Shown piece by piece: positions 1,894-30,023 of a stretch of 64,000 bases of DNA (positions are counted from its first letter, which is position 1; every line of letters begins with the position of its first letter). Source of the DNA: Domibacillus indicus (GTDB taxonomy: Bacteria > Bacillota > Bacilli > Bacillales > Domibacillaceae); assembly GCF_000970685.1 (NCBI RefSeq), contig NZ_LAJB01000002.1, forward strand, positions 1 through 64,000, in the 5' to 3' direction. The notes under the pieces are model-generated. The model was not told the DNA's origin, searched no databases, and worked only from the letters and a program-made list of their open reading frames with translations. The position numbers were made by a program, and so were the translations under genes.

Positions 1894-2022
1894 AATTACG
1901 GTAATTTTTTAAAAAGTTATCAATGACTGATAATGTAACGGTGTAGAAGATTTGTAATCGCCTATTTCTATTGTAGTCAATTGATGATGTGTAATGACAA
2001 GGTACAGAATGGAGAATCGACA

Positions 2023-13640: not shown

Positions 13641-14175
13641 ATAGGAACCATATATGGTTCCTATATATAAAAACCATATAGATACCGTGAAAATCCCTAT
13701 AAATAAAGGGATTTTTATCGGTTGCTTTGTGGAGAATACTTCGTCACGAAGGCTTATACAACGCGAACTGTTTAATAGGAACCATATATGGTTCCTATAT
13801 ATAAGAACCATATAGATACCGTGAAAATCCCTATAAATAAAGGGATTTTCATCGATTGCTTTGTGAAGAATACTTCGTCACGAAGGCTTATACAACGCAA
13901 AATGTTTAATAGGAACCATATATGGTTCCTATATATAAAAAGCATTAGCAGATATCGTGAAAATCTTTATAAATAAAGGGATTACCATCGATTGTTTTGT
14001 GGGGAATGTTCGTCACGAAGGCTTATACAACGCGAACTGTTTAATAGGAACCATATATGGTTCCTATATATAAGAACCATATAGATACCGTGAAAATCTC
14101 TATAAATAAAGGAATTGCCATCGATTGCTTTGTGGAGAATATCTGTCACGAAGGCTTATACAATGCGAAATGTTC
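13641..14175. repeat. Four tandem 134/135-bp repeats with internal dyads
   Basis: Units begin at 13641, 13775, 13909 and 14044 (spacing 134, 134, 135) and a degenerate fifth start is visible near 14176. Each opens with the perfect 20-bp palindrome AGGAACCATATATGGTTCCT, then has ATCCCT/AGGGAT flanking an 8-nt AT loop (imperfect in copies 3 and 4), then CTTCGT-C-ACGAAG, reduced in copies 3 and 4, and the conserved CACGAAGGCTTATACAACGC. Each unit can also be read as MVPIYKNHIDTVK..., but since 134 is not a multiple of three the frame shifts from copy to copy, so a repeated protein is unlikely. No matching unit elsewhere in the window. Confidence 0.9.
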
Positions 14176-14239
14176 AGTAGAAACCGTTAATGATTTTTAC
14201 TATAAAAAAACAGAATTACCTCTCAATAATTCATTTTGA

Positions 14240-15455
14240 TGTTATATGGAGAATTTAATTGTAAATACAGCAAAAAAGGATGTTAATAACTATCCTAAGT
14301 TCAGGAATAAAAAAGTCGATATCGAGGAGATTTTAGAAAATATAGAACTTGTGGTGCTTAGCAATTAGGAGTGGTACGGCAGCAAATCCTATCTAAGATA
14401 AGGGCAGGAAGAAGCTGCTCCATGTATCATTTAGGTCGTAAACTCTACCTGGATCAAGTTACTGTTATTTGTATAGTTATGCAAGTGAGTAATGCAATAA
14501 CCGAACGACCCAATCACATAGGTAGGTATGTTATTGGGGTATGTTATTTCAATTAACATACCTTATTCGTTAAAAAAGCAGGAGTAGCAAGGGTTCGGAT
14601 CAGTTTTACAAGCCACAGGAAATCCCGACTATAATAGAAAATACTATCCGATTTGGTAGGAGTCAGCAGTTTTCTAAAGTCCCGTGTTTGGGTGGTTTCG
14701 CCATTTTATAAATATACATATTTTTTTGTTTTAATCCAATTCGGGATCCCTGATAATATATATTGCTTTAATATAGCATGGCATACATGCTTGGAAAGGT
14801 AGATATATCTTCGCGACCTTCTATGAAGACTCGGTCTAGAGGAATGAATGAAAAACCTAATTTTTTATGAATTGATAAGTTGAAACAAAAGCGGTAATCA
14901 GGATTGGTTTATTATGCTCTATATGGCTAAACGGAAAAAACGAAGAAATGAGTCAACCCTGATAAAGTTTTTAAGTAATATAAGAGAACGGTTATTAATG
15001 GAACTGTTGAGACACTGGCCTTGCCATCTGACAAAAAATTTTTATACCGAACAGGACGTAGCACAGTGAAAACGTAAAAAAAGCAAAAATTATTGGGTTT
15101 TTAATGGAACAGAAAGGTCCAAGTTGATCAAAACGAAAATTTGAGAATCAGTTTGACTGAGCCACTAAGTGATTCTGCTGGTTATAAAAGATAAATTCAA
15201 GTTAAAATGGAAAACTGTTTGTAACCGCCCATATATTATAGAGAGAAAATCATATCAAACGGCTGATTTTCAATAAAGAATTTAATTAAATATAAAAAGG
15301 AATTTAAAATACTCTTTACAGGAATTAATGAATATAGTATATTATAAACATCAGATCGCTAACAGAGGAAACAGACAGCAATTTGTTTAGCGAAGATTTA
15401 ATGAAATTATTTTTCTATAGGCAGGTGTTGAACTATAACTGACAAAAAAAGAGGA
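14240..15455. other. 1.2-kb region without convincing genes
   Basis: Only short frames occur, such as a 40-residue frame from an ATG near 14248 to a TAG at ~14368 and a 52-codon basic frame near 14913-15069 (MLYMAKRKKRRNESTLIKF); neither has a good ribosome site or known family. Near 14549-14573 GGTATGTTA pairs with TAACATACC. The AT-rich content and lack of coding potential suggest decayed mobile DNA. The 3' end presumably contains the promoter for the gene at 15465. Confidence 0.45.
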
Positions 15456-15464
15456 GTGATGGCG

Positions 15465-16262
15465 ATGAACTTAATGAAACTTGAAATGATGAATGCAACA
15501 GATCGTGTAGGAGAAGCGCTTCAGACAAGAGGCTTATTTGTGAAGACACATGGCGGCGTACTTACATTGACTAAGGAAAATACAGATAATGACATTAAAA
15601 AGGTCCGATTTCTTCTTGAAAAGTTAAACATTCCAACACTGTGGAAAAGCAGTTATTCATTTGAAGTACTGATCAATCAGCTGCCGATTTCTATAATGAA
15701 AAAGATTATGCACGAAAAAGGAAAATCATTTCCGATTCGGATGGAAGGGTACCATTTCAAATGGCGCTCATTTGCACAGCGCCGCTTTGGTATCAAAGTA
15801 AATGCGCTTGATCTTGATGCCAATATGGCCATGTTTGTAAAGTCGCTAAATCTGGCTGGGGTCACTACGCTGGCCGGCTGCAGCGGTCATCATCGTTTTT
15901 CACCGAAAGTACAGCTGTCTGGTATCTACCAAGGTATGTGGTTCACCGTTATTCAGCAGCGCTACTTTAATGAACTATCCCTTCATTATAAATGGGATAC
16001 TTATTTTGCAACAGAAACGGGAGCTGCCATTGTCGCTAAGAAAGCTGTCGGTGAATCATGGGACATGGATTTTATTTATCAAGATACGGTGCAAATGGCG
16101 TGCGTCCTCCAACAGCATGCCGAAGAAATTCGGGAATTGAAGAAAACATGCTTTAAGCGAAATAAAGAAATGAAGCAGCATGTTGAGAAGATGGTAAACG
16201 AGAAAAAGTACAATGAGTTGTTGGAATGGATGAGCGAAGAAGTGAATAAGGAAAGGGAATAA
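15465..16262 (+). CDS. Conserved hypothetical protein
   Basis: 265 residues from ATG 15465, placed 8 nt after GGAG; GTG 15456 and ATG 15459 are in frame but too close to that site. The protein has a compact mixed alpha/beta core including LAGVTTLAGCSGHHRFSPKVQ near residues 127-147, where Cys and paired His may bind metal, and a charged helical C-terminus (KKTCFKRNKEMKQHVEKMVNEKK). No membrane segment. Base composition is somewhat higher in GC than the AT-rich DNA before it. Family not recognised; it lies between the repeat region and the restriction locus. Confidence 0.55.
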   Translation: MNLMKLEMMNATDRVGEALQTRGLFVKTHGGVLTLTKENTDNDIKKVRFLLEKLNIPTLWKSSYSFEVLINQLPISIMKKIMHEKGKSFPIRMEGYHFKWRSFAQRRFGIKVNALDLDANMAMFVKSLNLAGVTTLAGCSGHHRFSPKVQLSGIYQGMWFTVIQQRYFNELSLHYKWDTYFATETGAAIVAKKAVGESWDMDFIYQDTVQMACVLQQHAEEIRELKKTCFKRNKEMKQHVEKMVNEKKYNELLEWMSEEVNKERE

Positions 16263-16422
16263 AGTTATTCAGTAATTCTCCTTTAGACAAGTGGGCAAAC
16301 TGAAGAATGTGTTTAAATGGATTTTAAAACTAAGAGTGACAGAGCAACACTAACAGCATCCCATTAAATTATAAATGAATGTTTAAAATAAGAAACACAC
16401 CAATTCGTTAGGAGGAATGTGA

Positions 16423-16770
16423 TTGAAAACGATCCTTATCGTAGGTGGATTTAACAAAGCTGGTTACCAAGAAGTTGGAAAGAAAAATGGTGAGTACAAT
16501 ATATTGTTTCACAATGGTATAATTAAACGACAAAGCACTTCAGTATTCGAAAAGTTAGTGAAACAAGCTGATTGTGTAGTTCTCTTACAAGCGGCCTGTT
16601 CCCATAAAACCATGTGGGAAGTGAAAACACTGACAAAGAAGTATGCTGTACCAGTAACATATCCAAGAAGCAGAGGGATTACAGGAGCAATTAACTCTGC
16701 ATTGGAGATATTGAAAAATAATTCCCTTTTTTTGAGCTATAATAAAAAGAGAATTAATAATACCGTTTAA
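16423..16770 (+). CDS. DUF2325 domain protein
   Basis: 115 residues from TTG 16423, behind GGAGG. The pattern ILIVGGFNKAGYQEVGKKNG, a central ADCVVLLQAACSHKTMWEVK and a C-terminal VPVTYPRSRG matches DUF2325, small Rossmann-like proteins that often accompany DNA-processing genes in Firmicutes. The conserved Cys-Ser-His and YPRSRG are present. Biochemistry is not established. It is followed after 21 bp by the divergent methylase gene, so the two are probably one transcript. Confidence 0.75.
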   Translation: MKTILIVGGFNKAGYQEVGKKNGEYNILFHNGIIKRQSTSVFEKLVKQADCVVLLQAACSHKTMWEVKTLTKKYAVPVTYPRSRGITGAINSALEILKNNSLFLSYNKKRINNTV

Positions 16771-16791
16771 AGAAATTGAGGAGGGAATAAT

Positions 16792-18717
16792 TTGTCTAGA
16801 GAAAAAGCATTAGAATTTTTAAATGAATTAGAAGGGCGATTCGAGCAAAAAGAAACTAAGGAAAATGTAACAATCGAAATACTAAAACTGCACGCCCTGT
16901 TTTACGCAATGGAACAAAAAAGTTATTCGAATAAGTTGACAGAAATCGTTGCCAGGGAAGACTTCAAAAATAAGTTGGGCACCGTAAAAGAGAGCTTAAC
17001 GGAAATGTATAAAAAGTTGGAACTTCTTGAACCAGCCCTGCTAAATGTATTTCTTACAGAATCATTCAAGGACATTGAAGAAGATGTTTTTTATAAAATG
17101 GTTGTTCTTTTCGACCGCTATGGATTAACAAAGGAAGAATATCGAAATAAAAATATGGTTGTTGAATTTTTTAATGCTTTAATTGATGAATTGTTTTCAG
17201 CTTCCAAAGTATTTGACTTTACTCCTAAAGGATTAATTCAATTGATGGTACAGTCATTAAAACCAGGTAGCGGAACAGTTTATGATGCTACTGCTGGAAT
17301 TGCGAATATTGCGGTAGCTGCATACGACTATGCACGAAGTAATGGAAATGATGTAACAGTTTATGGACAAGAAATTAATGAAAACCTTTTTATTCTTGGA
17401 AAACTTAACTTATTTATCAGCAATATCTTACCATTGAAGGGCGATATAAAATTAGGCGATACGATTCGCGAACCAAAATGGGTGGAAAACAGTCGGATCA
17501 AGCAATTTGATTATGTTCTGATGAATTATCCATTTGGTTTAAGAGACTGGGGATATGATTTTGCAGAAAAGGATCCTTATGATCGTTTTAAAATGTATGC
17601 TATACCTCCAAAGTCACAAGGAGATTACGGGTTTATCTTACACGCATTATCATCCTTGAATAATACAGGTAAAGCGGCTATTGTGGTACCTTTTGGAATA
17701 CTGGTCAGGGGAGCAGCAGAAAGGAAAATAAGATCTATCCTTTTAAAAGACGATGTAATTGAAAGCATTGTTTCATTGCCGACCAATTTATTCAGCGGTA
17801 CAGGTATTCAGGTTGCTCTTCTTATATTGAATAAAAACAAACCGGCAGAAAAAAAAGGAAAAGTACAATTTGTAAATGCGGAAGGAGATTATGAACGCAC
17901 AAGAACACAAAGGTTTTTGCAGCAAGAACATATTGTTAAAATTACAGACACTTTAGAATCATTCGATACTAAAGAGCAGTATTCGCGAATTGTTTCCATA
18001 CAAGAGATAGAAGAAAATAATTTTGATTTAAATCCCACTTTGTATTTTGTAAATGTTGAACTGAAAACAGAATTCGGAAAGTTGGTATTTAACAAGAAGA
18101 AATACGAAACAGAAACTCCAGCGTTAATTAATATTGAAGAAATAGCAGACGTTATCCGAGGGGTTAACCTGCCAAGCCGAAGACAAATGGAAAATCCGGT
18201 TGGTGAGATTTATCCGGTTATTCAGCTGCGTGATATTGAAAACGGAACAATTCAATTTGAAACAATTGAGAAGTTCCCCGTCCAAACGAGAGATATTGAA
18301 CGCGTTACCGCTAAACCAGGTGATATTCTTGTTTCAAGTAGAGGGACACAGCAAAAAATAGCCATCGTACCTGAATATGAAGGAACCATACTGGTGTCAA
18401 ATATGTTTATTATCGTGCGTGTGGCATCTCCTGAAGAAGTGAACCCTTTATATATTCAACGATTCCTGGAAAGCCCAGCAGGCCAGTATTACTTTGAAGT
18501 TAATCAGAGCGGTTCGGTTATGACTGTATTAACGCCGAACGATATTAAGTCCATTAGCATTCCTCTTATTTCTCTCAAAGAACAATATGAAGTGATTAAG
18601 CGGTGGGAAGAAGCAGACGATTTAATTCGAAAAGCACAAGAAGAACGCAAAAAGCAGTATTTTTCTATATATGAAAGTCTGGGTTTTGGGTCAGCTATTC
18701 AAAAATTAAAGAAGTGA
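16792..18717 (+). CDS. Divergent HsdM-like N6-adenine methylase fused to a TRD-like domain
   Basis: 641 residues from TTG 16792, after GAGGAGG. Residues ~1-120 are a helical N-terminal part; ~140-420 an N6_Mtase domain; ~440-625 an HsdS-like target recognition half ending in a helix (EQYEVIKRWEEADDLIRKAQ). Motif I is DATAGIANIAVA near 165, where HsdM normally has DPTCGSGG, and motif IV is NYPF at 245-248 instead of NPPF. The Asn and Phe remain, so activity is possible but uncertain. Fusing M and S functions recalls type IIG/type I-like single-chain methylases, but no nuclease domain is attached. It precedes the MrpR-like and hsdMSR genes. It could be a second specificity, a modulator, or a non-catalytic DNA-binding relative. 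Confidence 0.8.
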   Translation: MSREKALEFLNELEGRFEQKETKENVTIEILKLHALFYAMEQKSYSNKLTEIVAREDFKNKLGTVKESLTEMYKKLELLEPALLNVFLTESFKDIEEDVFYKMVVLFDRYGLTKEEYRNKNMVVEFFNALIDELFSASKVFDFTPKGLIQLMVQSLKPGSGTVYDATAGIANIAVAAYDYARSNGNDVTVYGQEINENLFILGKLNLFISNILPLKGDIKLGDTIREPKWVENSRIKQFDYVLMNYPFGLRDWGYDFAEKDPYDRFKMYAIPPKSQGDYGFILHALSSLNNTGKAAIVVPFGILVRGAAERKIRSILLKDDVIESIVSLPTNLFSGTGIQVALLILNKNKPAEKKGKVQFVNAEGDYERTRTQRFLQQEHIVKITDTLESFDTKEQYSRIVSIQEIEENNFDLNPTLYFVNVELKTEFGKLVFNKKKYETETPALINIEEIADVIRGVNLPSRRQMENPVGEIYPVIQLRDIENGTIQFETIEKFPVQTRDIERVTAKPGDILVSSRGTQQKIAIVPEYEGTILVSNMFIIVRVASPEEVNPLYIQRFLESPAGQYYFEVNQSGSVMTVLTPNDIKSISIPLISLKEQYEVIKRWEEADDLIRKAQEERKKQYFSIYESLGFGSAIQKLKK

Positions 18718-18720
18718 TGC

Positions 18721-18822
18721 TTGATATCGAAAACCGTTATAAGGAACAAAACCTTTAATAAATGTAAATCTTGCGGAAATCAACGACAGGAATGCTATGA
18801 ACGGTCTAAATACGGCCTATAG
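18721..18822 (+). CDS. Possible 33-residue Cys-containing peptide
   Basis: A TTG immediately after the stop of the methylase gene opens a frame reading MISKTVIRNK, then KCKSCGNQRQECYERSKYGL and TAG. It has a CxxC and a further Cys, and could be a small zinc-binding peptide. The ribosome site is weak (AAAGAAGTG) and the frame is short, so it may be chance. Confidence 0.2.
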   Translation: MISKTVIRNKTFNKCKSCGNQRQECYERSKYGL

Positions 18823-18907
18823 AATGTATATAAAATATAAAGGATGACGTATGAGCTTCTTTAGATGAAAAGAGGGATAAGGATAAAAGGGAAAAGGAGA
18901 GAGGCCA

Positions 18908-19936
18908 ATGCTAAAATTAAACAAAGAAGAACCAAATAATGTTTTATTTAACGAAGAAATCAAAAATGCCTTTTTAGAAGAGCAAATTAATAAAAATATA
19001 ATTACCGTAGAAACAAGCAATAGCTACAAAAGAATTTTTATTAAAACCTCAGAAATTGAACAGAAGATGGGGAAGGATCTAAATAAGTTTAACAAAGAAG
19101 AATTAGAAGCTGTTTTGTTTCAGTTTGAATCCAAGTCTAGAAATACAATTGAAAGTTATGCAAGGATTATTTCAAGTTACTTACATTGGAGTTTACAGAA
19201 GGGGCTGGCTTCCGTAAATGTGTTATCTAGTTTTAGACCCGTTGACTTTGAAAAATACATTGTCAACAAAGAAGAATATATTACGGAAAAAACCCTGAGG
19301 TATTATGAGGATGGCTGTGTAAATTACCAAGATGCTGTCATCCTGCGCCTGCTGTTTACAGGGGTTGCAGGAAAGGAAATGTCTGAAATAAAGAATCTTA
19401 AAAAGCAAGATATTGATGGGGAAAACAACCGCTTGAGGTTAATAAACACACTGCAAGCTGATCAGAATGGAAATCCTGTTAAATACACTGAGCGATATTT
19501 AAGTGTAGATGATCGTACCATTGATTTAATCAAAGGAGCACTTCAAGATCGAATATACCACAAGCGAAATGGTGAAATCAATCAAACGGCTAATAATAAT
19601 ATTAGGCCCTATACAGATCTGGTAAATAGTGATTATGTAATCCGTTCTTCTATTACAAACACTGAAAGATTAAATTCCCAAGTAGACAAATTTTTAATAT
19701 ATAGGAGAGTGGAAATAATTCGCGAGTATTTTGGAATAGAAAATTTAACCGCCAAAATTATTCAGCGTAGCGGTATGATTCATCAAGCCGAAAAACTGAT
19801 TGAGGATAATCAATTAACTTTACATGATTTAAAAATAGTTGCTGACAGATTTAATGTAAAATCTTATCACAACTTGAAGGGCCTTTTAACGATTGAGAAT
19901 ATTCGTAAGGTTTATCCAGGAAATAGGCTGGCTTAA
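18908..19936 (+). CDS. MrpR-like protein: tyrosine-recombinase fold without catalytic Arg
   Basis: 342 residues, ATG 18908 after AAGGAG. An N-terminal SAM-like/core-binding part (~1-130, SRNTIESYARIISSYLHWSLQKG) is followed by a recombinase-like catalytic fold. At the box I position it reads LLFTGVAGKEMSEIKNLKKQDID, where active enzymes have TGxRxxEL: the arginine is missing. It therefore resembles MrpR/YopR, the SPbeta lysogeny repressor built on an inactive tyrosine recombinase. Such proteins can bind DNA and repress. Between the two methylase modules it may regulate the downstream hsdMSR operon. An inactivated integrase relic is the alternative. Confidence 0.7.
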   Translation: MLKLNKEEPNNVLFNEEIKNAFLEEQINKNIITVETSNSYKRIFIKTSEIEQKMGKDLNKFNKEELEAVLFQFESKSRNTIESYARIISSYLHWSLQKGLASVNVLSSFRPVDFEKYIVNKEEYITEKTLRYYEDGCVNYQDAVILRLLFTGVAGKEMSEIKNLKKQDIDGENNRLRLINTLQADQNGNPVKYTERYLSVDDRTIDLIKGALQDRIYHKRNGEINQTANNNIRPYTDLVNSDYVIRSSITNTERLNSQVDKFLIYRRVEIIREYFGIENLTAKIIQRSGMIHQAEKLIEDNQLTLHDLKIVADRFNVKSYHNLKGLLTIENIRKVYPGNRLA

Positions 19937-19954
19937 CAAATTAGAATGGAGCAA

Positions 19955-19987
19955 GGCCCATAGATGCCTTGAAGGGATCTATGGGCC
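19955..19987 (+). repeat. Strong stem-loop between mrpR-like gene and hsdM
   Basis: GGCCCATAGAT pairs perfectly with ATCTATGGGCC around an 11-nt loop, soon after the stop of the MrpR-like gene. No T-run follows, so it may be an mRNA processing/stability element or a DNA site rather than an intrinsic terminator. Confidence 0.6.
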
Positions 19988-20030
19988 GTGTAAATGAGTT
20001 AAACGTTTCTATATCAGAATAAATATTATA

Positions 20031-20058
20031 TTAAACAGAACGAGAATTTTGTTAAAAT
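20031..20058 (+). promoter_or_regulatory. Candidate hsdM promoter
   Basis: TTAAAC (20031-20036), 16-bp spacer, TAAAAT (20053-20058), 38 bp before the hsdM start. A sigma-A-like match by eye only. Confidence 0.4.
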
Positions 20059-20095
20059 AGAGAGAGTTACACTACATCTAAAGGAGACTACCAAC

Positions 20096-21589
20096 TTGGC
20101 GAAAATCACATTACAAGAACTTGAATCCCACTTATGGAAATCAGCGGACATTTTGCGTGGTTCGATTGATTCCAGTGACTATAAAAGCTATATCTTCGGA
20201 TTGCTCTTTATTAAACGGTTGAGCGATGTATTTTATGAAAGGCGTGCTCAATTAATTATGGAACAGGGCCAGGAAATCGGATTAATTTTAGCAGAAGATC
20301 CGGAACAGTATCAATTCTTTGTGCCAGTTGAAGCGCGTTGGGATGAGATCCGCAAAAATGCACAAGATATTGGAACAACCATCAATGTGGCTTTTGAAGC
20401 GCTTGAAAATGAAAACAAAACATTAGAAGGTGTACTGACACCAATTGATTTTAATCGTAAGGAAGTCTTAACAGATGATGTACTTCAGCGCCTCATTCAA
20501 CACTTTTCGATTTTGAGCTTAACAAACGAGAATTTATCAGAGCCGGATATGCTTGGTCGTGCTTATGAGTATCTGATTTCACAATTTGCGGATGATGCTG
20601 GTAAAAAAGGTGGCGAGTTCTATACACCATCGAAAGTGGTAGAGCTTATTGTTAAGCTTATTAAACCAAAAGAAGGCATGCGCGTGTACGATCCGACTTG
20701 TGGATCTGGTGGTATGTTGATTCAATCCGTTGACTACGTACGTGCAAAAGGCGGCAATCCTCAAGCGCTATCATTATATGGCCAGGAGAAAAACCTGAAT
20801 ACATGGAGTATCGCGAAAATGAACTTGCTGCTTCATGGGTTGCCCGATCATGATATTCGCAAAGGGGATACGATTCGCGACCCTAAATTGTTAGAAGACG
20901 GCGAACTTATGCTGTTCGATCGTGTAATTGCCAATCCACCGTTTTCCTTAAAAGAGTGGGGACGTGAGGCAGCAGAAACAGACACATTTGGCCGTTTTCG
21001 TTTTGGGATTCCTCCTAAAAATGCTGGAGATTATGCATTCGTTCAACATATGGTTGCGTCACTCAAGCATGACGGAATAGCTGGCGTTGTAATGCCTCAT
21101 GGTGTGTTATTTCGAGGAGGAGCGGAAGGGAAAATCCGTCAGGATCTTCTTGAATCAGATTTGGTTGAGGCGGTTATTGGGCTGCCATCAGGGCTATTTT
21201 ACGGAACAGGTATACCGGCATGTATTTTAATTCTTAATCGAAACAAACCGGAAGAGCGTAAAGGCAACGTCTTATTTATCTCTGCGGAATCAGATTTTCA
21301 AGAAGGTAAAAATCAAAATACATTACGTGAAATAGATATACTAAAAATCACTGATGCGTTCAATGATTATAAAAATATTGAAAAGTATGCACAATGTGTG
21401 CCAATCGAAGAGATTGAAGAGAACGGTTATAATTTAAATATTAGCCGCTACATTGATAAGTCTGAGGAAGAAGAACTAGTTGATATAAACACTTTGCTGA
21501 CAGATTTGAAAGAGATCGAAAATAAACACCAATTGATCAAACAAAAATTATCAGGTTATTTACAGGAACTCGGAATAGGTGAAGTATAA
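20096..21589 (+). CDS. hsdM: Type I restriction-modification methyltransferase subunit M
   Basis: 497 residues from TTG 20096 behind AAAGGAG. HsdM_N helical region (~1-150), then N6_Mtase with intact motif I DPTCGSGGM near residue 198 and motif IV NPPFSLKEWG near 279. It transfers a methyl group from SAM to adenine in the sequence chosen by HsdS. The stop overlaps the hsdS start (TAATG), so M and S are coupled. Length and motifs are standard, and it is clearly distinct from the divergent methylase at 16792. Confidence 0.95.
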   Translation: MAKITLQELESHLWKSADILRGSIDSSDYKSYIFGLLFIKRLSDVFYERRAQLIMEQGQEIGLILAEDPEQYQFFVPVEARWDEIRKNAQDIGTTINVAFEALENENKTLEGVLTPIDFNRKEVLTDDVLQRLIQHFSILSLTNENLSEPDMLGRAYEYLISQFADDAGKKGGEFYTPSKVVELIVKLIKPKEGMRVYDPTCGSGGMLIQSVDYVRAKGGNPQALSLYGQEKNLNTWSIAKMNLLLHGLPDHDIRKGDTIRDPKLLEDGELMLFDRVIANPPFSLKEWGREAAETDTFGRFRFGIPPKNAGDYAFVQHMVASLKHDGIAGVVMPHGVLFRGGAEGKIRQDLLESDLVEAVIGLPSGLFYGTGIPACILILNRNKPEERKGNVLFISAESDFQEGKNQNTLREIDILKITDAFNDYKNIEKYAQCVPIEEIEENGYNLNISRYIDKSEEEELVDINTLLTDLKEIENKHQLIKQKLSGYLQELGIGEV

Positions 21590-22833
21590 TGAAAACGGAA
21601 TTTAAAGAAGGTTATAAGGAGCAGACAGAAATGGATTCGATTCCATCTAAATGGGAAACGAAAACGGTGGGAGAGCTTTTCACTTTTCAAGGTGGACAAC
21701 AACCTCCGAGAAAGTACTTTTCATCCGAGAAAAAAGAAGGTTATATTCGCTTAATACAGATTCGTGATTACAAAACTGATAAATATCTTACCTATATACC
21801 AAAAGAAATGGCAAAGCGTTTTTGTGATGAAACAGATATCATGATTGGCAGATATGGTCCACCTGTATTTCAGATTCTTAGAGGGTTAGCTGGATCTTAC
21901 AATGTTGCATTGATAAAGGCTATACCTAATGAAAAAAAATTACTAAAGGAATATGCTTATTATTTCTTATGCAAGGAAGAACTTTTCAAATTAATCGATC
22001 ATCTTTCTCAAAGGTCTTCTGGTCAAACAGGAGTGGATATGGATGCTTTGAAAAATTATCCACTTCCACTTCCACCGTTAGAGGAACAACAGAGAATTGC
22101 TGAAATCCTTTCAACAACAGATGAGCAAATTGATAACACAGAGCAGCTCATTCAAAAAACAAAAGAATTGAAAAAAGGTTTAATGCAACAACTTTTAACA
22201 AAAGGAATAGGACACACAGAATTTAAACAGTCAGAGCTTGGTGAAATACCAGAATTGTGGAATGTATATACACTTAGAGACCTAATACGTATTAGAGGTG
22301 GTGCATCTCCATCGAAAATGGGAGTACTTAGCTCGATTGGAAAATATCCATTTTATAAGGTGAATGATTTAAATTTCACTAAAAAATATTTAAATAAATC
22401 CATATTCAATTTCGAAAATCTAAGCTTTGAGGAAATTAAAGAAAATTCTATTATATTTCCTAAAAGGGGTGCTTCAATATTTACTAATAAGATAGCTCTC
22501 GTATCTAGAAGCGGATATATGGACACGAATTTGATGGCTTTAGAAATAAACAATAGCTCGAACTTGTATCACGAGTATCTCTTCTATTTACTTTCTTTTA
22601 GAGGATTAGTAGAATTTGCTGATACGTCTTCTGTGCCGCAAATAAATAATAAACATATTGAGCTTATTAGGTTGGCTATTCCTCCTTTAAGAGAACAACA
22701 AAAAATTGCTGATATCCTCTCAACGATTGACGAGCAAATTGAGACTTATGAGCAGGAGAAAGAGAAGCAAATTGAGTTAAAAAAAGGCTTAATGCAGCAA
22801 TTACTTACAGGAAAAGTGCGGGTGACGGTGTAA
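21589..22833 (+). CDS. hsdS: Type I restriction-modification specificity subunit S
   Basis: 414 residues with two target recognition domains, each followed by the conserved helix: LPPLEEQQRIAEILSTTDEQ near 163-182 and IPPLREQQKIADILSTIDEQ near 364-383, the repeated pairs of HsdS. TRD1 starts with PSKWETKTVGELFTFQGGQQ, TRD2 with PELWNVYTLRDLIRIRGG. The ATG overlaps the hsdM stop. It sets the bipartite DNA target for both methylation and cleavage. No inverted partner hsdS copies were seen nearby, so no evident phase-variation cassette. Confidence 0.95.
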   Translation: MKTEFKEGYKEQTEMDSIPSKWETKTVGELFTFQGGQQPPRKYFSSEKKEGYIRLIQIRDYKTDKYLTYIPKEMAKRFCDETDIMIGRYGPPVFQILRGLAGSYNVALIKAIPNEKKLLKEYAYYFLCKEELFKLIDHLSQRSSGQTGVDMDALKNYPLPLPPLEEQQRIAEILSTTDEQIDNTEQLIQKTKELKKGLMQQLLTKGIGHTEFKQSELGEIPELWNVYTLRDLIRIRGGASPSKMGVLSSIGKYPFYKVNDLNFTKKYLNKSIFNFENLSFEEIKENSIIFPKRGASIFTNKIALVSRSGYMDTNLMALEINNSSNLYHEYLFYLLSFRGLVEFADTSSVPQINNKHIELIRLAIPPLREQQKIADILSTIDEQIETYEQEKEKQIELKKGLMQQLLTGKVRVTV

Positions 22834-22871
22834 ACCGTCCCTTTCTTTGTATACACCAGGAGGTGAAGCAG

Positions 22872-25808
22872 GTGCGAGATCAATTAGAAATGACGGAAGT
22901 AGAGATGCCTTTAGTACGGCAATTACAAGGCTATGGCTATACGTATTTAACCGGGGAAGAGCTGGATATAAGGAAAGACCGACGGGCAAGGACAAGCATT
23001 GTTTTGGAAAAACGGCTGCACAAGGTGTTGAAAGATCTAAACCCTTGGATAATCGATGCCAATATTGATAAAGTTATCGCTGAACTTACGACAATAGCGG
23101 AAGCAGACAGCATGACGGCGAATCAAACTGTGTATGATAAACTGTTTGGCCGGGGCATGGCTGTCCAACAAGACCGCGGGACTGGTAAGAAGAATCAGAC
23201 CGTGACATTGTTTGATTTTGAGAATATCGACAATAACGATTTCCTTGTCATCAATCAGATCAGCTATGAAAATGCGAGTGGAACGATCCGGCCGGATGTA
23301 GTTATTTACATAAATGGACTGCCTCTTGTTGTCGTAGAATGCAAAAGCCCAAAATTAAAATGGGATGCACAGCTGCCAGAAGGGGTCCGGCAATTTGATC
23401 GATATCAGGAAACGCACCCAAAATTGTTCTGGTACAACCAAATGCTGATTGTGACCAGCCGTGATCGTGCACGCATTGGAACGGTTGGGGCACGTCCACA
23501 ACACTATGGTCTCTGGAAAGACCCTTATCCCCTAACATTAGATGATGTGGCCAGTGACCGGCCACAGGACGTGTTAGCGGCGGGAGTATTACGGCGCGAA
23601 GCTGTACTAGATTTGATGCGCAATTTTATTGTCTATGATGGCAAAGTGAAGAAACTCGCACGCTACCAGCAATACCGTGCTGTGAATAAAGCATTAGATC
23701 GGATTGTACGTGGCGAGCGTCCAGATGACCGTGGCGGTGTTGTCTGGCATACACAAGGTTCAGGTAAGTCCCTGACGATGGTGTATTTGGCGATGAAACT
23801 GCGCCGCGTAGCATCACTCGAAAATCCGATGATTGTCATTGTCACTGACCGCCAAGATCTCGATGACCAGATCACGAAGACGTTCCGAAACTGTAATTTC
23901 CCTAATCCTACGCAGGCTGAATCTGTTGCGGACTTGAAACAGCAGCTCACAAGGGGACCGGGGGCCACCGTCATGACCCTTATTCAAAAGTTTCAAGGTG
24001 TTGAAGAAGACGGAACAGGATTCCCTGTCTTAACACAGGCTGAAAACATCATTGTCATGACCGATGAATCGCACCGGTCACAGTACAAAGGGCTGGCGCT
24101 TAACATGCGTAAGGCACTGCCAAATGCAACGTTTATTGCGTTTACCGGTACACCGATTGATAAAAAGAAACGGTCCACAACAGGGAAGTTCGGCGCGTAT
24201 ATCGACAAATACACGATTGAGCAGGCCGTAGAGGATGGCGCAACGGTGCCGATTTTGTATGAATCCCGCCTTCCGCAACTTCAAGTAAAAGGAGAAACGC
24301 TGGATGAATTATTTGAGCGTGTCTTTTATGAATACGATGAAGATGGACGCGAAAAAATTAAGCAAAAGCATGTAAATGAAGAACTGATTCTGACAGCACC
24401 GGATCGAATGGAACAAATTGCGATTGACATCGTAAAGCATTTTGAAAGTCATATCTTGGTCAATGGTTATAAAGCACAGGTTGTTGCGGTATCGCGGCGT
24501 GCAGCCGTCGAATATCAGAAATTGATTCAAACATACGCCGCTGGCAAATTTGAATCGGCCGTTGTTTTCTCAGCAAGGCACAATGATATTGAAGAGCTGA
24601 GAGACTATCATATTTCTAAAGAGGAAGAAAAAGAGCTAATTGAGCGGTTCAAAAAGCCATTCGAAGTGGACAAACTCTCGATGCTCATTGTGTGCGATAA
24701 ACTGCTGACAGGCTTTGATGCTCCAATTGAGCAGGTTATGTATTTAGATCGGCCGCTTCGTGAACATAATTTGCTTCAAGCGATTGCCCGGACAAACCGG
24801 AGATACGATGAAAATAAACATTATGGCTTGATTGTGGATTACTTTGGAGTATCACGCTTCTTAGATCAAGCGCTGGCTGTTTTCAGCTCTAGTGATGTGC
24901 GAGGGGCTCTAGAATCCATTAACGAGGAACTGCCACGCCTGGAGCAACGAAATCGGACGGTTATGCGATTTTTCGATGGCTTGTCTAAAGAACAGCGTGA
25001 AGCAGCAGTACTCCGGCTAAAAGATGAAGATGACCGTGCTGATTTTGACCAGGCGTATAAACGATTTGCAGAAAGCATGGATAAAGTCATGCCAAGTCCA
25101 AAAGCAGAGCCGTATATTGCCGATCTCAAATTCGCCGGCCTGATCCGCCAGCTGGCCAAGTCTCGCTATACAGTAGAGGATGGATTGGATATTGCTGACT
25201 GTGGAGAAAAAGTACGACAGCTTGTCCATAAATATTTGAATATCGAAGGCATTGAAGTGCGAGATCCTGTTCAGCTGTTAGACGGAACATTTAATGAGGA
25301 AGTTGAAAAGAATGTGCTGCCTGAATCAAAAGCTGCCCAGATGGAACATGCTATAAGAAAAGAAATCAGCGTGAAGATTGAAGCGGATGAAGTATACTAC
25401 ACTAAAGTATCTGAGCGTCTTAAACAGCTGCTGGAACGATTTAAAGAGCGTCAGCTCACCATTGATGAACTGATTGAAGAATATCGGCGATTACGTGATG
25501 AGTTAGTTGAAAAAGAGGCGGGGAAAACACAGAGTGGTCTGACAAAAGAGCAGGAACCATATTTCAATAAGTTTCGAGAAGTCTATGAAGGAGTTCGTGA
25601 TGAAGCAGAGTTGAAAGAGTGGTCTGCAGATGTCCACCGTTACTTTGAAGAGCGTGTGACCGTGATTCCAGACTGGAAAGCCAAGATGGACTTCCGGCGT
25701 AAGCTAAATGCGGACTTGAAGATTCTTTTGCTGAAAAAAACAAAGGATCTAGATGAAGCAAACATGCTGTGTGGTTATTTCTCTGCTTTAGCCGAAACAC
25801 AATTTTAA
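22872..25808 (+). CDS. hsdR: Type I restriction endonuclease subunit R
   Basis: 978 residues from GTG 22872, chosen because AGGAGG lies at 22858-22863; GTG 22863 overlaps that site. Nuclease domain with PDVVIYINGLPLVVVECKSP near residues 138-157 (D...ExK), then SF2 helicase: Walker A HTQGSGKSL near 295, DESH near 396, FTGTPI, and TGFDAP in the second RecA lobe. The C-terminal ~200 residues are helical and bind the MTase core. It translocates DNA and cleaves unmodified DNA. It is separated from hsdS by 38 bp and is intact. Confidence 0.95.
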   Translation: MRDQLEMTEVEMPLVRQLQGYGYTYLTGEELDIRKDRRARTSIVLEKRLHKVLKDLNPWIIDANIDKVIAELTTIAEADSMTANQTVYDKLFGRGMAVQQDRGTGKKNQTVTLFDFENIDNNDFLVINQISYENASGTIRPDVVIYINGLPLVVVECKSPKLKWDAQLPEGVRQFDRYQETHPKLFWYNQMLIVTSRDRARIGTVGARPQHYGLWKDPYPLTLDDVASDRPQDVLAAGVLRREAVLDLMRNFIVYDGKVKKLARYQQYRAVNKALDRIVRGERPDDRGGVVWHTQGSGKSLTMVYLAMKLRRVASLENPMIVIVTDRQDLDDQITKTFRNCNFPNPTQAESVADLKQQLTRGPGATVMTLIQKFQGVEEDGTGFPVLTQAENIIVMTDESHRSQYKGLALNMRKALPNATFIAFTGTPIDKKKRSTTGKFGAYIDKYTIEQAVEDGATVPILYESRLPQLQVKGETLDELFERVFYEYDEDGREKIKQKHVNEELILTAPDRMEQIAIDIVKHFESHILVNGYKAQVVAVSRRAAVEYQKLIQTYAAGKFESAVVFSARHNDIEELRDYHISKEEEKELIERFKKPFEVDKLSMLIVCDKLLTGFDAPIEQVMYLDRPLREHNLLQAIARTNRRYDENKHYGLIVDYFGVSRFLDQALAVFSSSDVRGALESINEELPRLEQRNRTVMRFFDGLSKEQREAAVLRLKDEDDRADFDQAYKRFAESMDKVMPSPKAEPYIADLKFAGLIRQLAKSRYTVEDGLDIADCGEKVRQLVHKYLNIEGIEVRDPVQLLDGTFNEEVEKNVLPESKAAQMEHAIRKEISVKIEADEVYYTKVSERLKQLLERFKERQLTIDELIEEYRRLRDELVEKEAGKTQSGLTKEQEPYFNKFREVYEGVRDEAELKEWSADVHRYFEERVTVIPDWKAKMDFRRKLNADLKILLLKKTKDLDEANMLCGYFSALAETQF

Positions 25809-25854: not shown

Positions 25855-26589
25855 TTATACGTAAAGCTGGCTGCCGTTTAGTCTCAGCCACTCTTTTCTT
25901 TCTTCATAGTCAGGCAAAAGCATCCGAAGTGTATCCCAATAAGCCTGCGTATGGTTCATTTCTTTCAAGTGAGCCAATTCATGAGCTAGTACATAATCGA
26001 CCATAGAAACAGGCGCTAAAAAAATCCGCCAGTTCAGAAGGATTCGTCCCTGTGGCGTACAACTACCCCATCGTTTCTCCATGCTTCGTACAGAAAGATC
26101 ACTAGGAGTCTTTCCTAACCGTTGTGTGAAGCGGTTAATTCGCTTTTCAGCAAATCGTTTTCCCTTTTGAATGATCCATTCTTTATACAAAGGATACAAA
26201 TGATTCCGGTAATCTTCGGTTGATGCCTCTAACGGAACCACGGCCTCAAACTGACCTTTAAAAAAACGAAAAGTGGGAACAGAGACTGCTTCCGACCGTA
26301 CTTTTAATCGATAATAACGGCCAAGATAGGGAAGCTTTTCTCCTGAGCGAAATTGAAGAGACCTGCTGGTTACACGCATTTCTTCAAAGTGAGCAAGCTG
26401 TTTCAGTATCCAGGGAGCTTTTTGGAGTAAAATCTGTTCGTATTTTCTTGTGTTTGTTCCAGCGGGAATGGTAACAATGACTTGGCCATCTTCTACGGCA
26501 ATACCAAGGGTTTTTCGGGAGCCCGATTCATGAAGAATGTAAGGGATAGATCTTTTGCCAAATTGAATGGTTTGTTGCAATGGTATCAC
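25855..26589 (-). CDS. YgjP-type zinc metallopeptidase (DUF45)
   Basis: 244 residues. The zinc site HELAHLKEMNH sits near residues 201-211 with the preceding WGSCTPQGRILLNWRI signature near 168-183; both are diagnostic of the YgjP/SprT-like DUF45 family. N-terminal ~90 residues are beta-rich. Such genes are often found beside type I restriction operons; a role there is not established. It is convergent with hsdR, 46 bp apart. The start ATG 26589 opens MIPLQQTIQFGKR. Confidence 0.85.
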   Translation of the reverse strand: MIPLQQTIQFGKRSIPYILHESGSRKTLGIAVEDGQVIVTIPAGTNTRKYEQILLQKAPWILKQLAHFEEMRVTSRSLQFRSGEKLPYLGRYYRLKVRSEAVSVPTFRFFKGQFEAVVPLEASTEDYRNHLYPLYKEWIIQKGKRFAEKRINRFTQRLGKTPSDLSVRSMEKRWGSCTPQGRILLNWRIFLAPVSMVDYVLAHELAHLKEMNHTQAYWDTLRMLLPDYEERKEWLRLNGSQLYV

Positions 26590-26922: not shown

Positions 26923-28164
26923 ATGGAAAATATGGATAACAAAGAGACTCAAGTTGGATTCGAGGCAAACGAAGATTTAGTTTTAAATATTGAGGCTTTA
27001 AGAAAGGTTGTAAATGGAGAAACACCGCTTCTTGAAGCATTTTTTATTGCTTGCAAGTATCATGCATGGTCGGCAAATACCAAAAAAAATTACGAATATC
27101 ATATGCAGAACTTTGTTAGCTTTCTCGTCTTAAATAAAGTAGACCCTCTGTTGAAAAACGTTGATCTTCCAATTTGTAAAGCTTGGCAAAAAAATTTAAA
27201 AGGGCGACTAGGTAAGAAAGATACTACTATTGATAATGCATTTCGGGCGTTAAGATCAATCCTTCGCTTTTATCATCAAATCGGTATACTTGCACAAAAT
27301 CCTTTTGAGTTAATAAAAATAACGATAGAGAGCCAGGATGCACATTCACGTCATTTGACTGTGTTTGAACAAAAACTTGTTTACCTAGCTGTTGAAAAGC
27401 TAAAGCAGGAGGGGTTTGACATTGAATTTAATGTCAAATTTGCATTAGTAACTGCGGCACGAGTCAACACATTAAATGCTGTTAAAGTACAGCACATAAA
27501 TTTTGAAAACAAAACCGTAAAGCTGCGGCAAAGCCGTAAAAACAGCCTTGAAATGCCTCTTAGTCCTACGATGGTTAAGTTAATTCAAAAGCATATCGAC
27601 ACACATAATTTAAAAGCGGAAGACCACCTATTGCGTAATTTAAAGGGAGAACCCCTTCAAAATAAACAATTCAACTATATGATTAAGCGTTTATGTCAGA
27701 AATTAGGGTGGGAAGGGGAAAAAGTATTTTCTCCTCATGGGTTTAGATACACTTTGGCTACCCATCTTGACAGCAAGGGTGCTAGTGACCATGTAATCCA
27801 ACTGAGCCTATCACACAGCAGCAAAGGTAACATGCAGACAACAAAGCGATATATTCATAATAAGTCAAAAACACTGGAAGAACTAAGGCTTTATATACAT
27901 GATTTTGACGCTGAATTTGAAGAGTTCGCTTCGCGGAACCGGCCATTGTTAAAGGGAGTGTCAACCGTTAAGCAGTTGGCGGGGATATTAGAAGAACAGG
28001 CTCTCTTTCAGGAGAGTATGCAAAAAGATGTAAATATTCAAGCTCTTAGCCAAGCGATTGATTTAATAAAAGCAAATCCCGGCCTGCTGCATTTGTCTAA
28101 TACATCTCCTGCATTCAGCAACAATTCGAATTTTGTTCATTATTTAAATGGGAGCCGTTTTTAA
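26923..28164 (+). CDS. Site-specific tyrosine recombinase
   Basis: 413 residues, ATG 26923 after AGGAGG. SAM-like N-terminal DNA-binding domain (~45-145, SANTKKNYEYHMQNFVSFL), then a catalytic domain with TAARVNTL (Arg ~180), SPHGFRYTLATHLDSKG (His/Arg ~271-274) and TTKRYIHNKS (Tyr ~309). All core residues of the Arg-His-Arg-Tyr set appear present, so it is probably active, unlike the MrpR-like protein. Residues after ~330 are an extra helical tail. It lies 29 bp before the DUF927 gene; the two likely form a mobile-element operon. Its att site was not identified. Confidence 0.85.
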   Translation: MENMDNKETQVGFEANEDLVLNIEALRKVVNGETPLLEAFFIACKYHAWSANTKKNYEYHMQNFVSFLVLNKVDPLLKNVDLPICKAWQKNLKGRLGKKDTTIDNAFRALRSILRFYHQIGILAQNPFELIKITIESQDAHSRHLTVFEQKLVYLAVEKLKQEGFDIEFNVKFALVTAARVNTLNAVKVQHINFENKTVKLRQSRKNSLEMPLSPTMVKLIQKHIDTHNLKAEDHLLRNLKGEPLQNKQFNYMIKRLCQKLGWEGEKVFSPHGFRYTLATHLDSKGASDHVIQLSLSHSSKGNMQTTKRYIHNKSKTLEELRLYIHDFDAEFEEFASRNRPLLKGVSTVKQLAGILEEQALFQESMQKDVNIQALSQAIDLIKANPGLLHLSNTSPAFSNNSNFVHYLNGSRF

Positions 28165-28193
28165 TTTTAGCGCAAGAAAGGAGAAGATAACCA

Positions 28194-30023
28194 ATGAGAC
28201 AGCAGGCTTTTTACCCTTATACAAGTGACCTGGATCAGTACCTTCCAACTGGTTTAAAAGACGATATTGATACGGAGAAGGATAAAAACGATTTAGGACA
28301 ACTATTAAATGGCCTCTTACTGCCTGATAAATACAAGTTAGATAAATCAGGAGAGATATGGCGAGATATCTCTCCTGAAACAACCCTGGAACCAAGATGG
28401 AGCCGTATTTCTCTGGCACCCATTTATATTAAATCTCTGTTTTTGGATATTGTCAGTGAAAATGAATATGTAAAATTAGCATGCAAACGAGCAGGTCAAG
28501 AACGGGAATGGTTTGTCAGCAGGGAAGACATCTCCACTTCTAGGATGATTGTTCAAGCTTCAAAATATGGGTTTCCCATTAATACAACAAATGCATCTGC
28601 CATAGTTGAATTTTTAGCTGACTTGGAAGCGGCTAACTTACAGAGACTGCCCTTCCAGAAAATCTCTAGTAAACTAGGCTGGCAAAAAGAACGAAATGGC
28701 TTTCTCTGGGGCAGAAATTATGTGTCCGTTAACGGTCATGTATCTGATGATACAATGGCTCATATAACATTTAAGCATCATGCGGATGAAGAAGCAGCCG
28801 CGGAGGGTTTTAAGACAAATGGGCTGTTAGAAAAATGGATAGAGGGAATAGCGGTTGCTGCCCGTTATCCAAAAGCGATGATTGGCTTTTACGCTTCCTT
28901 TCTCCCGGTTATTTTAGACATTATCAATTGCCCTAATTTTGTTTTGGACTACTGTGGCCTAACTTCAGGAGGCAAAACAACGGCCCTGCGCATAGCAGCA
29001 AGTACTTGTGGAAACCCTGGAGAACAGTCGCAAGATTCTATTATCTATAGCTGGCATTCGACCAAAGCTTGGGTTGAAAAATATGCTTCTTTTATCAACC
29101 ATCTTCCGCTAATTCTGGACGAATCGCAGCTTGCATCATCACCAAGAGATATCGCAAGTGTTTTATACAGTGTAGCCAATGGGAGAGGCAAAGGGAGAGG
29201 TCATGCAACTGGTTTTTATTCTGTTTCATCCTGGAAAACTGTTCTCATCTCAAGTGGCGAGAAGCCGGTTGTCTCGTTTACAAATGATGGAGGCACCAAA
29301 GCGCGCACTTTAACCATCGAAGGGTCTCCATTCGACAAACGGGATATGGAGATAAAAAAAGATATAGATAACATTAATCACACGTTGATCAGTCATTATG
29401 GACATGCTTATCCAATTTTTATTCAATATGTCATGAAACATCAATCTAAATGGGAAGCCTGGAAGGAAGAATACCGGCAAACAGTGTACGAGCTTATATC
29501 GAGTGAAGAAAATGCCGTATTGGGCCGGATCGCAGATTATGTGGCCGCTATTCAGTATGTCGCTTCTCTTGTACACGATGCTTTTCTGGAGAATGAGACT
29601 CCTTTTCCATTTGCATACCATGATGTGCTGAGTGATCTCTGGCAAAAGATGAGAAAGGTAGAAGAAGACCTTGATATTGCTGAAAAAGCGTTTAAAGCCA
29701 TCCTGAATTGGGCGTATGCTTATGAGTCTTCCTTTTACGGACGTGAAGGGCTAGAACCTTGTCCAGAGATGACAGGGCGTTGGGATCACGATCCTAATTG
29801 GCAATTTATCGCGTTTTTCCCCGAGAAACTAAAAGAAAGATTAACACAACTCGGTTATAATTCTCGAAAGGTTCTCTCAGAGTGGCACACTAGAGGCTGG
29901 ATTGAGGATCAGGGGAATGGATTCACCAAAAAAGTCCGTATCAAACAAATCAATAGCAATGTATATATGATTTCGATTCCTCGTAATGCCATCGATGAAA
30001 AACTCCCATACCACAGTGAATAA
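28194..30023 (+). CDS. DUF927 domain ATPase
   Basis: 609 residues, ATG 28194 after AAAGGAG. The central region carries Walker A GLTSGGKTTALR near residue 256 and Walker B LPLILDES near 304, with WHSTKAWVEKYA between, as in DUF927 (superfamily helicase/primase-like ATPases of mobile elements). C-terminal ~430-609 is helical and ends in a winged-helix-like region (LTQLGYNSRKVLSEWHTRGW). It may support replication or mobilisation of the element. It follows the recombinase gene and ends inside a strong bidirectional terminator. Confidence 0.8.
   Translation: MRQQAFYPYTSDLDQYLPTGLKDDIDTEKDKNDLGQLLNGLLLPDKYKLDKSGEIWRDISPETTLEPRWSRISLAPIYIKSLFLDIVSENEYVKLACKRAGQEREWFVSREDISTSRMIVQASKYGFPINTTNASAIVEFLADLEAANLQRLPFQKISSKLGWQKERNGFLWGRNYVSVNGHVSDDTMAHITFKHHADEEAAAEGFKTNGLLEKWIEGIAVAARYPKAMIGFYASFLPVILDIINCPNFVLDYCGLTSGGKTTALRIAASTCGNPGEQSQDSIIYSWHSTKAWVEKYASFINHLPLILDESQLASSPRDIASVLYSVANGRGKGRGHATGFYSVSSWKTVLISSGEKPVVSFTNDGGTKARTLTIEGSPFDKRDMEIKKDIDNINHTLISHYGHAYPIFIQYVMKHQSKWEAWKEEYRQTVYELISSEENAVLGRIADYVAAIQYVASLVHDAFLENETPFPFAYHDVLSDLWQKMRKVEEDLDIAEKAFKAILNWAYAYESSFYGREGLEPCPEMTGRWDHDPNWQFIAFFPEKLKERLTQLGYNSRKVLSEWHTRGWIEDQGNGFTKKVRIKQINSNVYMISIPRNAIDEKLPYHSE

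Follow-up and report, generated by a model that had tools for sequence, protein, structure and literature searches.

Why should an operon for a type I restriction-modification (RM) system carry, ahead of its own modification gene, a second adenine methylase with a target recognition domain (TRD) of its own? The question is raised by a 64,000-bp stretch of the Domibacillus indicus genome (contig NZ_LAJB01000002.1; hereafter the window), in which a 641-residue methylase-specificity (M~S) fusion, named MS641 here, is encoded upstream of hsdM, hsdS and hsdR. An original prediction had placed six plus-strand genes at 16423-25808, with two N6-methylase modules and one R subunit, all of which was confirmed, the six open reading frames (ORFs) receiving Pfam family assignments. 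MS641 is a leader protein found across Bacillota, and its loci combine a conserved module, changing RM genes, palindromic operator-like sites, a T-tract and a conserved TRD. As a methylase-like protein heading restriction operons beside matching sites, it therefore resembles a built-in control switch. The interpretation that we favour, with a probability of about 0.57, is that MS641 serves as a dedicated autoregulator for its own operon and descends from a homodimeric M~S methyltransferase of the gamma class (type I-like).

Relatives of MS641 were found at E <= 1e-100 in 15 of the 397 genomes of the window's order, the window genome included, and a profile search found full-length relatives elsewhere in the class and phylum, most of the further matches listed being HsdM-like and without the TRD part. 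When genome contigs were searched with the profile, MS641 was recovered from four named genomes, the fifth match (L023) being an HsdM locus, which was excluded from the set together with L123 and L125 (duplicates of L021 and L022), G906 (MS641-like, with a stop) and G557 (partial). Among plasmids, one full-length MS641 was found, on pSJ25 of Salimicrobium jeotgali, with the annotated gene order DUF2325, MS641, hypothetical, hsdM, hsdS, hsdR. This compact 25.5-kb plasmid (L122, NZ_CP011363.1) carries the whole module, hsdMSR included, and would be a convenient laboratory source. No MS641 was found in phage records at 1e-50, and the five matches on viral contigs (29-32% identity) covered the methylase part only.

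Within the resulting set of 43 loci, 34 had hsdM, hsdS and hsdR 3' of MS641, in the same orientation and no more than 12 kb away (L036 included, although its hsd genes are broken), corresponding to 23 of 30 sequence groups by a hand count in which the groups were set by hand from identities. The predicted linkage between the methylase and hsdMSR was therefore borne out, the two being found together, not apart, at most loci. The MrpR-like gene, which had been assigned to the same module, was present at a single MS641 locus, that of the window itself (profile from the window sequence alone, E <= 1e-3, within 5 kb), and a composite including MrpR as one conserved system was rejected. DUF2325 was encoded 5' of MS641 at 13 of the 43 loci, and relatives of a 268-aa protein of the window lay beside it at 11 and a protein of about 175 aa at 5. 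Of the three genes predicted to form an accessory module, the methylase thus stands, DUF2325 is frequent yet optional, and the MrpR-like gene does not belong. Nine loci were without hsdMSR. DISARM-like genes (DrmA, 3.7e-171; DrmB, 9.5e-61) and a MzaA match follow MS641 at L109, a helicase with a MzaC match at L020, and a PLD-helicase-like and a type IIG-like gene at L099 (PADLOC was applied to 10 chosen proteins); L033 has a type IV-like helicase 5' of MS641, L035 has hsdR remnants, L108 runs into the contig end, and L102, L115 and L116 are the other three. The related genomes of L035, L036, L037 and L126 have closely similar MS641 proteins and have kept leader and sites; the hsd genes behind are intact in L037 and L126, broken in L036 and reduced to those hsdR remnants in L035.

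The relationship between leader and restriction genes was assessed from sequence identities at 28 loci, of 39, that have both M and S. For MS641 pairs in the 60-80% identity bin, the methylase domain and TRD were 72.0% and 70.2% identical, whereas the linked hsdM and hsdS genes stood at 26.9% and 17.9%. In the lowest bin the TRD was still close to the methylase domain (29.5% and 33.1%), and at L030 and L031 the MS641 proteins were 91-95% identical with hsdM at 23%. Where linked HsdM proteins were 80-100% identical, HsdS averaged 35.9% (range 25-100), which is the usual type I behaviour. As the TRD and the methylase domain of MS641 have diverged to similar extents while the linked HsdM and HsdS are unrelated, it was concluded that the RM genes have been exchanged and the DNA specificity of MS641 held. 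A held specificity would be as expected for a fixed regulatory site as target, and not for a protection specificity. The original prediction had offered two roles for the accessory module, namely regulating the type I enzyme or adding a second specificity to it. The former fits the linkage with hsdMSR. The latter, MS641 as an extra specificity for the linked R subunit, was rejected given the conserved TRD beside unrelated HsdM and HsdS, and MS641 also heads operons that have no hsdMSR at all.

Inspection of the upstream regions had brought to light interrupted palindromes next to the promoters, and candidate regulatory sites were sought by scanning the 1.6 kb upstream of 39 MS641 genes for palindromes of 256 arms and 8 spacers (2048 combinations). 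The top palindrome was AGTA-N7-TACT, present in 10 of 28 groups where flanking DNA from those loci gave an expectation of 1.02 (Poisson probability times 2048, 3e-4), with a density of 0.36/kb upstream of MS641 and 0.02/kb elsewhere. Its general form, the 15-bp interrupted palindrome RGWA-N7-TWCY, occurred at 1.21/kb upstream of MS641 and 0.35/kb elsewhere. Two positions recurred, one shortly upstream of the -35 box (O1) and the other at most 75 bp ahead of where MS641 starts (O2). The latter interval contained RGWAN7TWCY at 25 of 39 MS641 starts, compared with 15 of 480 other gene starts (Fisher 1.5e-22), or in 17 of 30 sequence groups, and 18 hand-picked representatives yielded 12 O1 sites under a loose promoter rule and 17 O2 sites. 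As a control, 18 hsdM loci taken as being without MS641 (those of 37 candidates that passed an ORF and upstream-length rule; they may include the MS641-like L059 and L086) contained no AGTAN7TACT and 0.27/kb of RGWAN7TWCY. A run of at least five T preceded 25 of 27 O2 sites, as against 5 of 20 O1-like sites and 29 of 519 further motif copies; the L127 site was left out of the O2 count by hand and taken as O1, since it overlaps the -35 box, and its inclusion gives 25 of 28. These T-tracts end 15-19 nt before the O2 core, except in L024 (22). An intrinsic terminator before O2 was considered and rejected, the T-tract being without a strong hairpin, as was a fixed O1-O2 spacing, the distances observed lying between about 89 and 1451 bp.

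The form of the site was mostly concordant with the TRD tree, being GWATTnnnAATWC in the window's clade and GTAATnnnATTAC in most others, with L101, L102, L115 and L127 departing from this match; L025 and L026 carry GAA-N7-TTC itself at O1. Sites were present at loci where neither DUF2325 nor a relative of the 268-aa protein was detected (for example L029, L032 and L035-L037), and L029 and L035-L037 likewise yielded no small accessory genes. In the window, RGWAWTNNNAWTWCY has two matches, which are O1 and O2 (0.72 expected; two were reached in 10 of 100 shuffles). The stricter RGWATTNNNAATWCY occurs at 8 places in the D. indicus genome (reversed control, 3), two of them again O1 and O2, and at the rate set by the other six copies the chance of finding two in the 1.55-kb leader is 3e-6. 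For the conserved block around O1, 0 matches were expected in shuffles with 3 mismatches allowed. The predicted promoter at 15315 is the joint best of 20 promoter-like matches in 15200-20200, agreeing at 10 of 12 positions; 17.6 such matches were expected in shuffles, so that they are no rarer there.

The MS641 protein is a single chain comprising a gamma-class N6-methylase domain (residues 143-421), one type I TRD (approximately 446-615) and a long C-terminal helix (595-632), for which an AlphaFold model of mean predicted local distance difference test (pLDDT) 86.1 was obtained. Its closest folds in the PDB are the PacII methylase subunits M1 and M2, and the nearest solved sequence to its TRD, the one closest to it, is Esub1 (PDB 8vsq/8vsr; E 1.5e-32, family profile), which was solved as a chain of about 200 aa without a methylase; a literature search for Esub1, 8VSQ and 8VSR gave nothing relevant among the matches listed. 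No helix-turn-helix (HTH) family was found in MS641 or DUF2325 up to E 0.1 in Pfam, so neither has the mark of a C protein, and no HTH repressor domain of the EcoRII/SsoII kind was found fused to MS641 in the Pfam scan. Membership of the MADS families was likewise not seen, the scores being 35.3 against a NCBIfam cut-off of 720 bits (MAD2) and 45.4 against 400 bits (MAD5).

Catalytic residues were compared between 43 MS641 proteins and 28 linked HsdM proteins. The S-adenosylmethionine (SAM) pocket is kept in MS641 about as well as in linked HsdM (D165, G169 and E/D194, each 42/43). Motif IV, on the other hand, is relaxed: its Asn is found in 28/43 MS641 against 28/28 linked HsdM (p 2e-4) and its first Pro in 13/43 against 28/28 (p 4e-10). 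The first residue of the motif is N, D or S in 39/43, and E, T, H or A replaces the Asn in single members, in which methylase activity is unlikely. In the window MS641 the motif reads NYPF in place of an intact NPP(F/Y). As N-x-P-F resembles the motif of rRNA adenine dimethylases, methylase activity is possible in members such as this one. With the SAM pocket kept and motif IV relaxed, occupancy of the sites was therefore favoured over their methylation.

Under the proposed autoregulation, GWA-N7-TWC would be read by a MS641 homodimer, each subunit contributing its one TRD. Dimerisation and recognition of an interrupted palindrome are to be expected of an M~S chain with a single TRD, as in the homodimeric enzymes M.XmnI (GAAN4TTC) and M.DrdI (GACN6GTC) (PMC3874165; this and the other papers below are cited from excerpts of their text) and the half-S enzyme EcoR124INT (GAAN7TTC; PMC3320862), whose site has the same 3-7-3 layout as GWA-N7-TWC. 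MS641 shares with these enzymes one methylase domain and one TRD per unit, the interrupted palindrome and the C-terminal helix; it differs from them in that its motif IV is relaxed, no nuclease sharing its specificity was seen next to it, and its presumed sites occupy operator positions in a different RM operon. The location of O1 beside the -35 box suggests promoter occlusion, by which bound MS641 would hinder initiation. O2 lies within the transcription unit and has a T-tract before it, at roughly one polymerase half-length, which suggests roadblock termination: MS641 bound before its own gene would halt elongating RNA polymerase on that tract. At such roadblocks a T-rich stretch aids release, and the half-length is the distance to the front edge of the polymerase. 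Expression of MS641 and of the defence genes behind it would then be confined to times when MS641 is in short supply or cannot bind, and the outcome would be negative feedback, with a burst of expression on entry of the operon into a new cell or on titration or inactivation of MS641. C.Kpn2I, an elongation roadblock on its own gene, has been proposed to occlude the methylase promoter (PMC6237814), and the roadblocks catalogued for Bacillus include CcpA and CodY (PMC10310618). It is also possible that the operon is activated from O1 and repressed from O2, in the manner of a C-protein circuit.

Several observations weigh against the autoregulator interpretation. The O2 sites of L022 and L033 have no T-tract, and 14 of 39 MS641 starts, mostly in distant branches, have no site within 75 bp (L100, L103-L114 and L116), with AGTAN7TACT further upstream in L108, L110, L111 and L113; the distant branches L100, L103-L107 and L114 were compared by eye only. 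The concordance between operator and TRD could derive in part from common descent, and O1 and O2 could be bound by another protein. The motif was also defined on the same loci as most of the counts, the held-out set consisting of four loci fetched after it had been fixed (L122, L124, L126 and L127). All four carry sites. L124 and L126, near relatives of loci already used, have both O1 and O2; L122 and L127 are distant from the loci used for the motif, the former having two palindromes of which the second precedes DUF2325 and not MS641, and the latter a single site overlapping the -35 box and no O2. Finally, a DNA-only search of the 397 genomes for a T-tract with a GTAAT-type site returned 40 rows (30 genomes) against about 58 in the reversed control, and so gave no overall enrichment. 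Three of the 30 fetched loci were MS641 operons and two further places lay in MS641 leaders, only one of these five having its T-tract on the coding strand. As the gap was set at 10-14 nt and most O2 sites have about 16 nt, this was a poor test for O2, and the interpretation was not supported by it.

Of the explanations that compete with autoregulation by occupancy, the one given most weight, and still rather unlikely, is an epigenetic switch, in which MS641 retains adenine methylase activity and turns the operon on or off by methylating O1 and O2, not by merely occupying them. The kept SAM pocket and the N, D or S that begins motif IV in most members speak for it, as does the control of CfrBI, AhdI and LlaDII by promoter methylation (PMC12707154), and set against these are the lower frequency of the first Pro and of the Asn than in linked HsdM, the single members with E, T, H or A, and the NYPF of the window protein. 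A more far-reaching form of the repressor interpretation, likewise rather unlikely, is a sensor function, by which MS641 proteins would be a broad class of methylase-derived defence repressors that use the SAM pocket as a gauge and are released by counter-defence. With SAM present and no DNA-mimic inhibitor, the dimer would sit on O1 and O2 and keep the defence operon low; phage anti-restriction proteins such as Ocr or ArdA, which titrate type I-like methylases, or removal of SAM would free the operon and turn RM, DISARM or Mza on. The leader would in that event be a counter-defence sensor and more than a feedback valve.

It was also possible, if improbable, that the palindromes serve a regulator other than MS641, be it DUF2325, one of the small accessory proteins or a factor of the host, and that MS641 is its client. 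The binding of the sites by MS641 is deduced from sequence, and both DUF2325 and the 268-aa-like protein are frequent in the set; however, sites occur at loci where neither was detected, the control hsdM loci were without AGTAN7TACT and poor in the general form, and the site form mostly tracks the TRD clade. That MS641 is an ordinary solitary methylase marking the genome with a second modification specificity, the palindromes being incidental, would agree with its methylase domain and TRD and with the existence of homodimeric M~S modification enzymes (PMC3874165). This was judged quite improbable in view of the two recurring positions of the sites, the relaxed motif IV, and a TRD that is as conserved as the methylase domain, unlike that of linked HsdS. 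Least probable of all is a structural role for MS641 within the type I enzyme, in a mixed complex with HsdM/HsdR resembling PacII M1M2S: the best fold matches and the shared operon would suit such a role, but MS641 carries its own TRD and occurs with unrelated HsdM and HsdS and before DISARM- or Mza-like genes.

Little seems to be known of how type I RM is controlled at the transcriptional level, and within the open-licence literature none of the matches listed described an M~S methylase that controls a type I system. A term search of an older review of RM regulation gave neither 'hsdM' nor 'Type I R-M' in the text, and matched the other terms in its reference list only (PMC3874152), and a 2025 review names, in its excerpts, one type I locus with a C protein, that of Mycoplasma gallisepticum (PMC12707154). 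The proposed arrangement shares with C proteins, notably C.Kpn2I, the control of RM through a site beside the -35 box and a site inside a transcribed gene (PMC6237814); C proteins bind by HTH (PMC12707154), whereas MS641 is methylase-derived with no HTH match. With the regulatory methyltransferases M.EcoRII, Ecl18kI and SsoII, and with CfrBI, AhdI and LlaDII, it shares a methylase that controls RM transcription. In those systems the system's own modification enzyme doubles as regulator, via a fused repressor domain or methylation (PMC12707154), whereas MS641 is a separate methylase with its own TRD ahead of a full hsdMSR. RptR, described in 2025, is likewise a repressor at the head of type I RM islands, with conserved sites; it differs in being a small regulator, and its target TAGCTA occurs as three direct repeats (PMC12255303). 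If the autoregulator interpretation is correct, defence genes in Bacillota would be subject to a general layer of control by a methylase-derived protein that has operators of its own, one kind of controller being common to unrelated RM genes and apparently DISARM- or Mza-like operons. It predicts exactly which bases, at which distance and before which gene, and is cheap to test. It also cautions against taking every genome-encoded N6-methylase that has a TRD for a modification enzyme.

The features of the window locus are collected in Table 1. The original prediction had recognised the six genes from DUF2325 to hsdR and overlooked both the 268-aa gene and the operator sites. As the 268-aa protein is homologous to a protein of about 220 aa encoded 3' of MS641 in related loci, and as the promoter block conserved in the window's subfamily (15297-15321) lies 5' of its gene, the operon probably starts one gene earlier than predicted.

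Table 1. Predicted genes and sites of the MS641 operon in the window.
Feature	Position	Strand	Remarks
O1 core, GGAATTTAAAATACT (RGWA-N7-TWCY)	15299..15313	+	one base before -35 box; conserved block
Predicted operon promoter, -35 TTTACA, 17 bp, -10 TATATT	15315..15343	+	same block in seven related loci
268-aa protein gene	15456..16262	+	no Pfam match; probably first gene of operon; relatives 3' or 5' of MS641 elsewhere
DUF2325 protein, 115 aa	16423..16770	+	PF10087, 1.8e-15
T-tract, 7 T	16727..16733	+	17-23 nt before O2 core start
O2 core, AGAATTAATAATACC	16750..16764	+	inside 3' end of DUF2325 gene; 27 bp from core end to MS641 start codon
MS641, 641 aa	16792..18717	+	N6_Mtase 8.3e-70, single weak Methylase_S 0.0031; proposed controller
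MrpR-like protein, tyrosine-recombinase type	18908..19936	+	Pfam MrpR_N_CB/MrpR_C_cat; local addition
HsdM	20096..21589	+	HsdM_N, N6_Mtase
HsdS, two TRDs	21589..22833	+	two Methylase_S stretches
HsdR	22863..25808	+	HSDR_N, SWI2_SNF2, T1R domains

From DUF2325 to hsdR the genes are separated by 21, 190 and 159 bp, a 1-bp overlap (hsdM/hsdS) and 29 bp. The three hsd genes at 20096-25808 constitute a complete classical type I system, HsdR scoring 585.4 bits against TIGR00348 (cut-off 284.55) with both nuclease and superfamily 2 (SF2) translocase domains present. The MrpR-like protein scored 80.5 (N) and 60.7 (C) bits for the MrpR domains (cut-offs 27); in MrpR itself the recombinase catalytic residues are lost (PMC10516654). 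For the 268-aa protein, an AlphaFold2 model (mean pLDDT 80.5) gave no PDB match at E <= 0.001 (best E 0.088). DUF2325 had no PDB match up to E 1, and no open-licence literature linking DUF2325 to RM was found.

The surrounding region looks like a defence island. A GmrSD-type nuclease and a protein with a NucS C-terminal domain are encoded upstream (1981-3792 and 10255-11430), and a YgjP-like metallopeptidase gene on the opposite strand (25855-26589) adjoins hsdR. Just past the RM operon and the YgjP gene, a tyrosine recombinase (413 aa) is followed by a DUF927/Cch-HTH protein related, below cut-off (100.7/700 bits), to the SCCmec replicative helicase Cch1 (NF047345), and this segment (26923-30023) is possibly a cassette-type mobile element carrying the island. 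At 13788-14239, two neighbouring short ORFs with a nearly identical start peptide (MVPIYKNHIDTVKI...) represent a local duplication.

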